From NCBI GenBank assembly GCA_947453625.1, contig CANGHK010000004.1, positions 1 to 64,000 on the forward strand: a stretch of DNA of 64,000 nucleotides. Reading direction: 5' to 3'. Positions 53,215-57,603 of this stretch are shown here, one piece after another (the first letter of the stretch is position 1; every line of letters starts with the position of its first letter). The stretch is from Burkholderiales bacterium. GTDB lineage: Bacteria; Pseudomonadota; Gammaproteobacteria; Burkholderiales; Burkholderiaceae_C. The position numbers and the translations under genes are program-made. The notes beneath the pieces were generated by a model. The model was not told the origin of the DNA. It worked only from the letters and a program-made list of their open reading frames with translations, and did no database searches.

Positions 53215-54135
53215 TCAGCGGACGGCGCCCACCTCGACCAGAAAGCGCGCCAACCGGGCCTGGGCGGCTTCGCGCGCGCCCGGGTGACCGCCCAGGTGCA
53301 CGCCCTGGCCGGGTTGCGCGCCGTTGGGCACCTCGCGCCACAGCCGCAGCGGCGCGGTGCCATCGAAGCCATGGTGCGCATCGGCGTACACCTCGCGCTG
53401 CGGCCGCGGCTCGGTGGCTTCGTCGGCCAGTCCCAGGCAGGGCGCTGCCGGGGTCCAGTCGTCGGCGCCGCCCAGCAGCAGCAGCAGAGGTGCGGCCGGA
53501 CGATGACCACGCCGCCGCTCGTCGTTGCAGCCGGGGTAGAACGCCACGGCGAAAGCCGGCTTCACTGCTGCGGCGGCCACCTCGGCATGGCCCAGGTTGG
53601 TGGCGCCCAGCACCGCGGTACCGCCATGCGACCAGCCGATCAGTCCGAGCCGGGCGGCGTCCACGCCCGGTTGCACGGCCAGCCATTGCAATGCGCCCAG
53701 GGCGTCGAGCCGGCGGTGCAACTGGGTGACCAGGCGCTGGCCGATAGGCTGGGTGCACAGCGAGCGCTCGCCGCGGGGGCTGAGCGAGTCGGTGACCAGC
53801 ACGCTCAGCCCAAGCGCCTGCAGCCGTGCGGCGTACTCGACCAGTCGTTCGCTCAGCGCGCTGCCGCGGCCATAGGGCCCGCCACAGCCATGCAGCAGCA
53901 GCACCGCCGCCCGCGGTCCGGGCCCGGCGTCGAACCAGAAACCGGGCTGCTGCAGCGCTGTCCCGCCCGGGGCATCCAGGCTGGGCACCTGCACGCGCAG
54001 CGGCTCGGACGCGCGGGCGCCAGCCGACAGGGCCGCCGCGGCCAGCAGGATAGACAGACCCCGGCGAAGCCTTGCCAGGGATCGGGCGCGGGCTGAGGGC
54101 GATTGAATTCGCAAGCTTGGCGGGTTTGTCACCAT
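53215..54135 (-). CDS. Secreted alpha/beta hydrolase (dienelactone hydrolase-like)
   Basis: The 306-residue protein has a signal peptide with core LSILLAAAALSAGARAS. The nucleophile elbow is GWSHGG, the oxyanion loop is LLLHGCGGPYGRGS, and the acid and histidine are in GGADDWTP and YADAHHGFDG. CNDER and LCTQPIG hold cysteines that may form a disulfide. Substrate unknown. Read leftward, divergently from the desaturase remnant. Confidence 0.82.
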   Translation of the reverse strand: MVTNPPSLRIQSPSARARSLARLRRGLSILLAAAALSAGARASEPLRVQVPSLDAPGGTALQQPGFWFDAGPGPRAAVLLLHGCGGPYGRGSALSERLVEYAARLQALGLSVLVTDSLSPRGERSLCTQPIGQRLVTQLHRRLDALGALQWLAVQPGVDAARLGLIGWSHGGTAVLGATNLGHAEVAAAAVKPAFAVAFYPGCNDERRRGHRPAAPLLLLLGGADDWTPAAPCLGLADEATEPRPQREVYADAHHGFDGTAPLRLWREVPNGAQPGQGVHLGGHPGAREAAQARLARFLVEVGAVR

Positions 54136-54200
54136 GGGGCGAGTGTGCCCTGATCTCCTAAACTCAGCCTGCGGGTCGACCGCGCACCCTGCCGCCGCCC

Positions 54201-54647
54201 ATGCTCAACCCCATCCTCTACGCCGTGCCCCTGTACCTGGCAATGATGGCCGTGGAATATACCGTCGAGCGGCGCCGCGGCCGGCCGGTGTACCGCGCGG
54301 CCGACAACCTAGCCAGCCTGTCGCTGGGCATCCTCATGCTGGCCTACGACTTCTGCTGCTGGCGGCACCGCATGGGCCTTGAAGTGCCGCCACTGTGGGC
54401 GGCCCATGGGGTGCACCACGGCAGCGAAGACCACGAGCTCAGCAGCGCGCTGCGCCAGACCGGCACCGGTTTCCTGTTCGGCTGGGTCTTCTGCCTGCCG
54501 ATGGCGCTGGTGGGCGCGGCGCTGCTGGCCGTCTCGCCGCTGCACGGCCTGCCCGCGTGGCTGCTGTGGGCGGCCGGTCTGGCCGGCGCCTGGGCGCTGA
54601 CGCGGGCCGGGCGCGCCACGCCGTCCCGGCGGCCCAGCGCGGCCTGA
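54201..54647 (+). pseudogene. Truncated sterol desaturase/fatty acid hydroxylase-like gene
   Basis: The first 45 residues, LYLAMMAVEYTVERRRGRPVY, match the N-terminus of membrane fatty acid hydroxylases of ~280-350 residues. A jump of about 45-50 residues follows, and the text resumes with YDFCCWRHRMGLEV and AAHGVHHGSEDHELSSALRQT, the first two histidine boxes in altered form. The third histidine box and the C-terminal ~90 residues are missing. The TGA stop lies inside the terminal repeat of the element at 54644-54809. Di-iron catalysis is not possible without the last box. The protein is probably non-functional. Confidence 0.75.
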
Positions 54648-54809
54648 GAGCCTGAGAGTTTTTCGATCATGCCCGCTCACCACGCCAAAACGCACCCGCT
54701 CGTCGTTGCAAATGCTCGCCACAGCCCGAGCTATGTCTGCGCTTTGCGTCTAGATCGAGCACGTTTTGGCATGTTGCTCGGTCACGCTCGAATTCCTCTC
54801 AGCCTCTGA
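54644..54809 (+). repeat. Inverted-repeat element, copy A (MITE-like)
   Basis: The 166-bp element begins CTGAGAGCCTGAG and ends CTCAGCCTCTGA, imperfect terminal inverted repeats. Its interior is nearly identical to the reverse complement of 56284-56450, with only about ten differences by eye. Both contain internal half-palindromes around CCAAAACG and CGTTTTGG. No transposase is encoded. Element A abuts the MFS gene start with six bases between, and it contains the stop codon of the truncated desaturase gene. Confidence 0.85.
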
Positions 54810-54815
54810 CGCCGC

Positions 54816-56105
54816 ATGTCCAGCAGCCTGGCCAGCGCGCCATTCCTGGCGCCCTTCGGCACCCGCAGTTTCCGCTTCCAATGGCCGGCCGACCTCTGCG
54901 TGGCCTGGGCGCTGGAGATGGAGACGCTGGTGCTGGGCTGGTTCGTGCTGGTCGAGACCGGCTCGGTGCTGATGCTCACGGTGTTCGGCGCGCTGCAGTT
55001 CGTGGGCACGCTGGCCTCGCCGTTGCTGGGCACGCTGGGCGATCGGGTCGGCCTGCGCCGGGTGCTGGCCACGATGCGCTTCGGCTATGCACTGCTGGCG
55101 GGCGTGATCCTGCTGCTGGCGGGCACGGGCGAGCTCAACGTGTTCGCAGTGCTGTGCGTGGCCGGGGTGGCCGGGGTGATCCGGCCCTCGGACATCGGCA
55201 TGCGCACCGCGCTGGTCGGCGCCACGGTGCCGCCCCGCCACCTGATGGCGGCGATCGGCATCTCGCGCACCAGCATGGACTCGGCCAAGGTGGCCGGTGC
55301 GCTGGTGGGTGCCGGCGTGGTGGCGGTGTTCGGCATGGTGGCGGCCTATGCCGCGATCGTCGCGATCCACCTGGCCGGCGCGCTGCTGACGCTGCAGGTC
55401 GATGCCGGCCGGCATGCGCCGGCTGCCGCGCCGTTGGTGCCGGGGGGCGCGGCGCTGGCACCGCCGCAGTCGCCCTGGCGCGAGCTGCGCGAGGGCCTGG
55501 CCCATGTCTGGCACCGCCCGCGCTTGCTGGCGGCGATGTGCATGGCCGCGCTGGTCAACCTCAGCGCCTATCCGTTCACCGGCGGGCTGATGCCCTACAT
55601 CGCCCGCGAGGTGTTCCACCTCGACCAGCGGGGGCTGGGCTGGCTGATCGCCAGCTTTTCCGCCGGCGCGCTGATCGGCTCGGTCCTGATGGGCGCGCTG
55701 GGCGGGCGGCTGCGGCCCGGTCGCGCGATGCTGGTCGCCAGCGTGGTCTGGTACGGCTGCCTGTTCGGCTTCGTGGCCACGCCCCCGGTGGCGGTGGCGA
55801 TGGCGCTGCTGGTGGGGGCCGGCATGGCGCAGAGCACCAGCATGCTGGCGCTGTCCATGCTGCTGCTGCGCTCGGTGGACCAGCGCTTCCGGGGCCGGAT
55901 CATGGGCGTTCGCATGCTGGCCATCTATCCATTGCCGCTGGGGCTGCTGCTCACCGGCGCGCTGATCCCGCGCATCGGCTATGCGTGGACGGCCGACCTG
56001 GTGTTGTGCTGTGGCCTGGCGCTGACGCTGGCCATCGGCATGGCCTGGCGCGATGAGCTGTGGCGCAGCGCGTCGCCCGGCAATGCGCTGGCCCCGCACG
56101 GCTGA
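54816..56105 (+). CDS. Major facilitator superfamily transporter
   Basis: The 429-residue protein has about 10-12 hydrophobic helices. GDRVGLRRVLATMRFGYAL is the cytosolic loop after helix 2 typical of MFS proteins. FRGRIMGVRMLAIYPLPLG is a late loop of enterobactin exporter-like drug or metabolite exporters (MFS_3). The start at 54816 is only six bases past the repeat element, and no clear ribosome site lies before it, so its expression signals would lie within the element. Function as an exporter is plausible; the cargo is unknown. Confidence 0.85.
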   Translation: MSSSLASAPFLAPFGTRSFRFQWPADLCVAWALEMETLVLGWFVLVETGSVLMLTVFGALQFVGTLASPLLGTLGDRVGLRRVLATMRFGYALLAGVILLLAGTGELNVFAVLCVAGVAGVIRPSDIGMRTALVGATVPPRHLMAAIGISRTSMDSAKVAGALVGAGVVAVFGMVAAYAAIVAIHLAGALLTLQVDAGRHAPAAAPLVPGGAALAPPQSPWRELREGLAHVWHRPRLLAAMCMAALVNLSAYPFTGGLMPYIAREVFHLDQRGLGWLIASFSAGALIGSVLMGALGGRLRPGRAMLVASVVWYGCLFGFVATPPVAVAMALLVGAGMAQSTSMLALSMLLLRSVDQRFRGRIMGVRMLAIYPLPLGLLLTGALIPRIGYAWTADLVLCCGLALTLAIGMAWRDELWRSASPGNALAPHG

Positions 56106-56146
56106 GGGTCTGCGCAGGCTGACCTTGAAGTCCATGCCTGCGGCCT

Positions 56147-56279
56147 TCAGGCTCGCCGGCAGACCCGACGCAGCGCGCTGCCCAGCAAGCGCAGCGCGTC
56201 GAACAGGCTCTCGACGTTCCTGATCGTCAACGGCCCGTGCTGCGGGCCAAGGTGGCCAATCGTCGGTTCCGGCAGGGTT
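56147..56279 (-). pseudogene. Orphan C-terminal coding fragment
   Basis: On the minus strand one frame reads PEPTIGHLGPQHGPLTIRN and VESLFDALRLLGSALRRVC, then ends at a TGA at 56147-56149. The sequence looks like genuine protein with a hydrophobic tail, but the family is not recognised. Its 5' part is cut off at repeat element B, which begins at 56284. It could be the tail of a transposase or a transporter. No start codon is present. Confidence 0.35.
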
Positions 56280-56283
56280 CGGC

Positions 56284-56450
56284 CTCAGAGGCTGAGAGGA
56301 ATTCGAGCGTGACCGAGCAGCGTGCCAAAACGTGCTCGATCTAGGCGCAAAGCGCAGACATAGCCCGGGCTATGGCGAGCATTTGCAACGACGAGCGGGT
56401 GCGTTTTGGCGTGATGAGCGGGCATGATCGAAAAACGCTCAGCCTCTCAG
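56284..56450 (-). repeat. Inverted-repeat element, copy B (MITE-like)
   Basis: The 167-bp element starts CTCAGAGGCTGAG and ends CTCAGCCTCTCAG. It is the inverted counterpart of copy A, and the two face each other around the MFS gene. The right terminal repeat contains the TGA stop of the solute-binding protein gene at 56447-56449. It encodes nothing. Confidence 0.85.
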
Positions 56451-57442
56451 ACCTTGGCCAGCCCGGCCTTGACCAGCAAGGGCCGCACGCTGTTGAAGTA
56501 CTGCTCGGCAAACGCCCGGTACTCGGCCGGGTTCTTGCGCCAGGGCACCTGGATGTAGCGGCCCAGCAGTTCCAGCGTGGCGGGGTCGTTGTTGGCCTCG
56601 TTGAAGGCCTCATACAGGCTCTGCGCGATGGCCGGCGGCAGGTCTCTGGGGCCGACCAGGCCGTAGGGGCTCTGGCCCACCGCGTCGATGTTGCGCTCGC
56701 GCAGCGTTGGCACGTTGGCGTACTTGGGCAGCCGCTGCTCGGTCACCATCGCCAGGATGCGGCAGCGCCCGTCGTCGACGAACGGCCCCCATTGCGACGC
56801 GTCGGCCAGGAAGTCGATCTGCCCGCCCAGCAGCGCCTGCATCCATTCAGCGCCACCCTTGTAGGGGATGTGGTTGAACTTCGAGCCGACCTTCTGCTCG
56901 ATCTCGATCATCATCAGGTGGCCCGACCCGCCGATGCCGCTGGTGCCGTAGGTGTGCTTCTCGGGGCTGGCCTTGCCGGCGGCGAACAGGTCCTCCACTG
57001 TCTTCCACGGCGAGTCGGCGCGCACCACCAGCGCGAAGGTGTACGACGACAGGCCGGTGATGAAGCTGAAGTCGCGCGTGGGGTGCCAGTTCACCGACTG
57101 GTAATGCGGGTAGCGCAGGCTGTTGATGGTGTAGCAGGCCAGCGTGTGGCCGTCGGGCTTGGCGTTCACCAGCGCTGCCGGGGCCAGCGTGCCGGCGGCG
57201 CCGGCGCGGGCTTCCACCAGGATCTGCTGGCCCAGCACCCGGCCGACCTTCTCGCCGATCAGGCGCAGGTGCAGGTCGGTGATGCCACCCACCGCGAAAG
57301 GGTTGTAGATCGTGATCGGGCGCTCGGGCTTCCAGCGCGGTGCTGCGGCGGTCTGCGCAATGGCCAGGCCGGGTGCGGCCAGCAGACTGCCTAGGCCTGC
57401 GGTCAGTGTGCGGCGGCGGGGGTCGAAGGTCGAATCGGGCAT
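56447..57442 (-). CDS. Tripartite tricarboxylate transporter substrate-binding protein (Bug family)
   Basis: The 331-residue periplasmic binding protein begins MPDSTFDPRRRTLTAGLG, a twin-arginine-like signal peptide, and the mature part starts RPITIYNPFAVGGITDLHLR. LVEARAGAAGTLAPAALVNAKPDGHTL and IPYKGGAEWMQALLGGQIDF are standard Bug motifs. The ATG at 57442 follows GGAG. No membrane subunits of the transporter are adjacent. Orphan Bug proteins are numerous in Burkholderiales. The ligand is unknown. Confidence 0.88.
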   Translation of the reverse strand: MPDSTFDPRRRTLTAGLGSLLAAPGLAIAQTAAAPRWKPERPITIYNPFAVGGITDLHLRLIGEKVGRVLGQQILVEARAGAAGTLAPAALVNAKPDGHTLACYTINSLRYPHYQSVNWHPTRDFSFITGLSSYTFALVVRADSPWKTVEDLFAAGKASPEKHTYGTSGIGGSGHLMMIEIEQKVGSKFNHIPYKGGAEWMQALLGGQIDFLADASQWGPFVDDGRCRILAMVTEQRLPKYANVPTLRERNIDAVGQSPYGLVGPRDLPPAIAQSLYEAFNEANNDPATLELLGRYIQVPWRKNPAEYRAFAEQYFNSVRPLLVKAGLAKV

Positions 57443-57603
57443 GACGGGTATCTCCAGGCTGGGGGAGCCCCGATCTGACCAGCCCGGCCCGGTCCAGGCC
57501 ATGAGGGATGACCAGCAAACCGGCGTTGCCGTGGCCCCATCAGGCGCGCCATGTCGCGCAGGCGTCAGTGCGGCGGGATGGGTCGGCATGAAACAAAGAT
57601 GCC

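Follow-up and report, generated by a model that had tools for sequence, protein, structure and literature searches.

A candidate MITE-like 159-bp element flanking a transporter gene in a Burkholderiales genome

Two near-identical sequences stand in inverted orientation on either side of an MFS transporter gene in the window, by which we mean the whole stretch of 64,000 nucleotides analysed here. Do they form the ends of a unit that moves or flips the gene, as a sequence-only reading had proposed, or did each arrive by itself? The features on which the answer depends are as follows.

54201-54647, plus strand: upstream gene, 148 aa, with a partial FA_hydroxylase match below the Pfam cut-off; copy 1 has its left target at the stop codon of this gene
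54645-54647, plus strand: left TGA of copy 1, which ends the upstream gene and is also the left one of the two 3-bp target copies (ORF end; single TGA at the empty site in relative G020)
54648-54806, plus strand: element copy 1, 159 bp, orientation set by the core strand TTGCAAAT... (repeat search and comparison with other copies)
54648-54658, plus strand: left terminal inverted repeat of copy 1, GAGCCTGAGAG (sequence, copy comparison)
54698-54756, plus strand: conserved hairpin core of copy 1, 84.8 bits with model R1 (covariance model match)
54796-54806, plus strand: right terminal inverted repeat of copy 1, CTCTCAGCCTC (sequence, copy comparison)
54807-54809, plus strand: right TGA of copy 1, the target duplication (copy comparison, empty site)
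54816-56105, plus strand: MFS transporter gene between the copies, a native neighbour of the upstream gene and not cargo (Pfam MFS_1, 2.2e-21)
56115-56248, strand not given: gene fragment, longer in relatives, the "orphan coding tail" (comparison with relatives)
56285-56287, minus strand: right flank of copy 2, TCA, which is TGA on the minus strand (sequence)
56288-56446, minus strand: element copy 2, 159 bp, opposite in orientation to copy 1 (repeat search and comparison with other copies)
56338-56396, minus strand: hairpin core of copy 2, 89.6 bits with model R1 (covariance model match)
56447-56449, minus strand: left TGA of copy 2, which terminates the TctC-family gene (ORF 56447-57589, minus strand)
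56447-57589, minus strand: TctC-family receptor gene; copy 2 has its left target at the stop codon (Pfam TctC, 6.4e-59)

Extent, copies and insertion sites of the element

The inverted pair is real, as first described. A repeat search pairs 54641-54814 with 56280-56453 over 174 nt at 94% complementarity, and in the 159-bp element proper the two copies are identical at 151 of 159 aligned positions. The resemblance is far beyond chance, since the same element recurs, whole or in part, at 12 further places in the 5.18-Mb genome, the scattered copies by which the sequence-only reading had suggested that such an element could be recognised. Each copy alone is an imperfect palindrome (63-nt arms at 73% and 61-nt arms at 70% in the repeat search), which bears out the internal palindromic halves noticed earlier. 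The terminal inverted repeats are 11 bp long, GAG[C/G]CTGAG[A/C]G on the left and CTCTCAGCCTC on the right, TGA (TCA on the other strand) stands outside both ends, and the two ends change together between subfamilies; the commonest left repeat among the copies is GAGGCTGAGAG, and copy 1 has the form GAGCCTGAGAG. The earlier description of a 13-bp repeat, CTGAGAGGCTGAG, correctly placed repeats at the ends, but its unit has to be redrawn, as those letters comprise the flanking CTGA and the first 9 bases of the repeat. A length of 159 bp leaves no room for a transposase gene.

The genome (127 contigs) holds 10 full copies and four interrupted or shortened ones. Two of the four, on contigs C19 and C54, are short forms without the middle; the other two, on C39 and C18, each contain the remnant of an IS110-type gene, and the C18 copy is also partly deleted. 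Core matches with different arms are clear on C8 and C73 and weak on C33. Copy 1 was matched in 18 of the 60 genomes searched (its own and relatives), and the named genomes with the element are, by record title, mostly Burkholderiales; Massilia glaciei is one that carries many copies. No phage record carried the element, and none of the five plasmid records that matched reached 80% query coverage.

We compared 117 full copies, all oriented by the core. Exactly 159 letters separate the flanking triplets in 98 of them; the left triplet is TGA in 103 and the right in 108, the same 3 bp stand on both sides in 100, and C precedes the left triplet in 102. The element has an orientation, its left end coming after TGA. 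For the left TGA the count is partly conditioned, as 67 of the copies came from loci found by a pattern that already contained the left TGA; it is present in 42 of the 50 copies found without that pattern. Another triplet stands on both sides in only two of the 117 (TAA/TAA in L273, TCA/TCA in L315). Because the target is nearly always TGA, a true duplication can hardly be distinguished from an element that carries one TGA of its own.

Related genomes supply empty sites. For copy 1, locus L153 of G020 reads ...GCGGCC TGA GCACCG and then the MFS start codon; at the equivalent site the window has the same TGA, then the element, then a second TGA. The copy on C9 has an exact empty site with one TGA in G013, and for that on C12 the sequence runs on unbroken, element absent, in G005, G007 and G002, although small differences where the flanks meet leave this site not base-sharp. 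Scattered copies with target duplications had been named at the outset as support for a MITE, and they are found, with TGA on both sides and empty sites at a single TGA. On these sequence traits (short, without a transposase of its own, bounded by terminal inverted repeats and a 3-bp repeat of the target, scattered) the element is best described as MITE-like and non-autonomous. We consider it probable that both repeats at the locus are copies of such an element, which would insert at CTGA, leave TGA on both sides and depend on transposase supplied in trans.

The left TGA often coincides with the stop codon of the upstream gene. Counting a left TGA (or TAA) that ends a long open frame with a genic third-position G+C pattern, this is so in 79 of 117 copies (own genome 7/10, genus and family 31/40, named genomes 41/67). 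For a null we considered CTGA sites that were gene stops or lay outside coding sequence, with elements masked and genes called by a crude caller, and took the share of stops: 26 of 99 sites for the window (26%), 338 of 1206 for the loci from named genomes (28%) and 58 of 158 for those from genus and family (37%). Binomial P values, which ignore kinship of copies and the crudeness of gene calling, are 1.5e-8 for 41/67 against 0.28 and 9.5e-9 for 38/50 against 0.36; set against one half they become 0.04 and 0.0002. By this crudely called null, the left TGA is enriched at real stop codons. Insertion at a stop leaves the gene product intact because the stop codon is duplicated. Selection could account for part of the placement, and targeting of stop codons is possible, the null being unable to separate the two. 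Such placement offers a mobile element a way to persist among closely packed genes and leave them intact.

The copies on C39 and C18 contain an identical IS110-type remnant with an identical right junction (C18 has lost the left one), and they share the letters TAGAACGGGC, absent from the other copies in this genome; their outer flanks are unrelated. The C39 remnant matches Pfam DEDD_Tnp_IS110 (6.4e-07) and Transposase_20 (9.1e-05). Since remnant, right junction and TAGAACGGGC are the same and the outer flanks differ, the interrupted element probably moved as one unit; two insertions by a site-specific IS110 are a possible but less simple reading. IS110 was also considered as the mover of the element and taken to be a passenger, as the remnant interrupts the hairpin arms and a relative of it in G333 sits in an unrelated target.

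Other variants were seen among the loci. Forms of about 60 bp (L072, L073, L076, L077, L078, L080, L014, L017) keep both ends and lack the hairpin, with joints that differ; they are probably independent deletions of the palindrome. The left end of the copy on C35 is lengthened by a tandem run of the 8-mer CTGAGAGG (L054:2600-2670), and runs resembling it precede some left ends in the named-genome loci. Many of the matches listed for named genomes belong to one Rhizobacter MAG (JAJKJU01), and in loci L233, L236, L249, L253, L255, L261, L273 and L289 the match lies some 65 bases into the stretch, as though the contigs had been broken within the element.

Pairing, strand bias and elements with other ends

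Pairing along the element is maintained by compensatory double changes. In an alignment of 23 diverse full elements (24 were picked and L312 was left out), they occur at 24 of the 47 predicted pairs, with few G-T intermediates on the plus strand. Mismatches were counted in 36 non-redundant elements out of 89, at 45 arm positions after nine poorly paired ones had been left out; arm pairing is 75% in register versus 26-32% when shifted by one or two bases. On the plus strand A-C mismatches number 95 and G-T mismatches 19, pyrimidine pairs 88 and purine pairs 18. A-C exceeds G-T in 26 of the 36 elements and the reverse in none, with 10 ties, and by position the split is 24 to 6 (P 0.0014). Since A-C mismatches outnumber G-T on the plus strand, it is the minus strand that holds the wobble pairs. 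Predicted folding agrees in showing the minus strand as the better-folded one: it is the more stable in 36 of 36 elements, by a mean of 20 kcal/mol, whichever way the genes run. Strand-symmetric mutation should not yield such a bias, and the minus-strand fold, as RNA or as single-stranded DNA, may be what selection preserves.

The middle of the palindrome extends well beyond elements with these ends. A covariance model of the central 59 nt (R1), built from 33 sequences and showing double changes in 6 of its 13 pairs, matches the genome itself at 14 places. With the own genome counted each time, and with E-values that are rough, it matches 24 of 100 genomes from the order (these represent 23 of 70 genera), 29 of 185 of the class and 11 of 150 of the phylum; six of the last lie outside the class, all in one family. 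Many of these core-bearing palindromes have other ends: CTAG followed by TGCTGCG, by TACCTCG or by TGTAGTG, CTAG or TTAA followed by GGAACCTCTGATC, and others. A terminal repeat pair was obtained in 19 of 24 other-end loci, the remaining five being without one, and the best pairs lie 158-161 bp apart in six of the 19 (L083, L103, L104, L106, L348, L349) and 130 to 187 bp apart in the others. Element length is common to several end types, not to all.

The strand bias recurs in these cousins. From 40 loci, 10 had no core match and L040 equals L130, which leaves 29, some of them close relatives; the minus strand is predicted to be the better folded in 25 of the 29, by a mean of 8.6 kcal/mol, and where the strands are more than 2 kcal/mol apart 18 of the 29 favour the minus strand and 3 the reverse. 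Avoidance of strong hairpins in the host transcript was considered as a cause and is not likely: the neighbouring gene ends are left-sense in 6 cases and right-antisense in 14, yet the bias stands at 25 of 29. At one place in G025 (L079:1526-1960) a TGA-type element has received, in the CTAG at the foot of its core, a core-bearing palindrome of the CTAG type; cores, to judge from this case, offer targets to their cousins.

We tentatively suggest a wider reading, in which all these palindromes would belong to an old superfamily of hairpin elements, mostly about 160 bp long, that keep the core and the folded minus strand and swap ends and targets (TGA, CTAG, TTAA) by paired changes. The folded strand would be the working part, borrowing different transposases and, here, homing to stop codons. 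The range would cover the class of the window's genome and one family outside it. If true, this would be a new kind of small mobile element, with a folded strand (RNA or single-stranded DNA) as its working part.

Mechanism of movement and history of the locus

In the IS1031 and IS427 groups of the IS5 family, target duplications are TNA or TA and the ends start with GAG or GGG. The duplications found here fit TNA, being TGA, once TAA and once TCA. A DDE transposase of this type, acting in trans, would cut at the terminal repeats. As for the ends themselves, only a CTAG-type cousin resembles a transposase-bearing element: G004 has an 829-bp element with a PF01609 match, CTAG flanks and ends that read CTAG followed by GGCCTGTTAAC, which we take to be an IS5-family member, and the end of the core-bearing palindrome in L079, CTAGGGCCTGTT, matches it over the first 12 bases. 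No autonomous element with TGA-type ends was found among the own genome, the PF01609 loci of the genus and the fetched loci. The own genome has no PF13340 match, a motif scan around 30 PF01609 loci (21 genomes of the genus, among the matches listed) found no TGA-type ends, a repeat-pair scan of PF01609 loci, taking the best three pairs per locus, gave no autonomous partner, and the fetched loci contain no long element except for the IS110 interruption. A symmetric DDE system would have no need of the locked orientation seen here, which counts against the DDE explanation.

HUH enzymes of the IS200/IS605 or RAYT kind work on a hairpin substrate, with a fixed target and a cleavage site of the element's own. 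Were the element moved in that way, its substrate would be the minus-strand hairpin; the left CTGA would serve as a fixed target, and cleavage of the element itself would take place at the right CTGA. Such a mechanism would suit the strand-biased folding of all 36 elements, the TGA adjoining the left end in 103 of 117 copies and the finding that, of the 14 copies with some other left triplet, 10 still have TGA on the right. It is nonetheless unlikely: the terminal repeats lie at the very ends and covary between subfamilies, one copy is flanked by TAA on both sides, core-bearing cousins with other ends have CTAG or TTAA on both sides, and the cousin end in L079 equals the first 12 bases of the transposase-bearing element in G004.

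The placement at stop codons and the compensatory changes could also be explained by a structured RNA or chromosomal hairpin site, such as a terminator or an mRNA stabiliser, kept at gene ends for the benefit of the host. We regard this as quite improbable, because the transcript of the upstream gene is the weaker-folding strand, terminator-like patterns are absent, presence differs between species at the three sites examined, and no Rfam family corresponds. A pattern search found no terminator or promoter in 54500-56600. Rfam gave no match at gathering score over 20 loci, and in window positions 54000-57500 its four matches all fell below that score, none over the two copies; a known RNA family, which the sequence-only reading had set against its own proposal, thus did not appear.

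What the pair means for the transporter gene is best judged from relatives. In G020 the MFS gene (88% identical) follows the upstream gene in the same orientation after a gap of 6 nt (TGA GCACCG ATG), the element is absent, and the parent of the orphan coding tail lies downstream of the MFS gene. With upstream gene and MFS gene adjacent there and the tail's parent following, copy 1 was inserted between two old neighbours. The tail is indeed a piece of coding sequence, as had been supposed, with relatives in G020, G011, G005 and G013, in the first three of which similar coding, by eye, continues past it. The order and orientation of upstream gene, tail's parent and TctC gene also hold in G011, where about 22.5 kb separates the second from the third; between tail and TctC gene the window has only copy 2 and some decayed sequence. 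A deletion with the element at its joint is a fair inference, and copy 2 would possibly mark that joint, the two copies beside the MFS gene probably being independent insertions.

Two further traces of decay were seen here. The stretch 56115-56287 is a decayed fragment of a longer gene adjoining copy 2, and the upstream ORF (54201-54647) is without two internal stretches (about 118 and 640 bp) present in its G020 relative, so that it is apparently an internally deleted gene.

Some 160 bp of inverted sequence at 95% identity could in principle recombine, which would make the pair a switch that flips the MFS gene; this is very unlikely, as gene order and orientation match those in G020, which has no element between upstream gene and MFS gene. 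Hardly credible at all is a composite transposon whose inverted ends brought in the MFS gene as a 1.8-kb unit: two near-identical inverted copies do surround one gene, and one copy of the family can apparently move with 1.13 kb inside it, but the enclosed gene is a native neighbour in G020, adjacent to the upstream gene in the same orientation without any element and followed by the parent of the tail. What stands of the first proposal is a MITE-like element lacking a transposase; its carriage of the MFS gene does not, and the reading of the locus is corrected to one in which no transposon carries the transporter gene.

Comparison with known systems

The literature search, from whose scope most subscription journals fell, returned nothing that names the sequence in a title or the start of an abstract, and core words of 14-15 letters matched no paper in full text. 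The nearest relatives by mechanism would be the IS1031 and IS427 groups of the IS5 family. The ends of the 829-bp PF01609 element of G004, which is flanked by CTAG, resemble those of some core-bearing palindromes; that element differs from what the element at this locus would call for, an autonomous form with TGA-type ends, which was not found among the fetched loci and the genus PF01609 loci in the matches listed.

With bacterial MITEs such as Correia/NEMIS, RUP, ERIC, Chunjie and QMITE, the element shares short length, lack of coding sequence, terminal repeats, target duplication and scattered copies. It differs in its sequence, its placement at TGA and stop codons and a core common to elements with different ends, features not named in the available text of PMC10969869 and PMC2229807. 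MITEs are usually viewed as insertion sequences with a decayed interior (as put in the available portion of PMC10969869). Here conservation is highest in the interior, it is the ends that vary, and the strand folding bias persists across end types. Whether a short palindrome that moves contains a functional nucleic-acid structure itself thereby becomes a testable question.

YPAL/RU-2 of Yersinia, as described in the part of PMC2229807 available, is a 168-bp palindrome of similar length, is likewise not A+T-rich and was likewise studied by comparing empty and filled sites; it has internal inverted repeats and target duplications of 3 to 26 bp, whereas the element here has terminal repeats and a near-fixed TGA. 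The ends of GTAG-tagged REPs often give a stop codon to a flanking ORF (PMC3733652, available text), a likeness to the placement seen here. REPs, however, measure 20-40 bp, against 159 bp here, and at two sites the stop codon is already present in the empty site; the ends of this element also bear no GTAG or CGTC tag, which sets it apart from REPs and BIMEs. Finally, QMITE2 of Coxiella, with IS1111 inserted in it (PMC10969869, available text), parallels the IS110-type remnant in the palindromes on C39 and C18 as an insertion sequence lodged in a palindromic MITE; it is a different MITE, and in the present case the interrupted element seems to have travelled whole.
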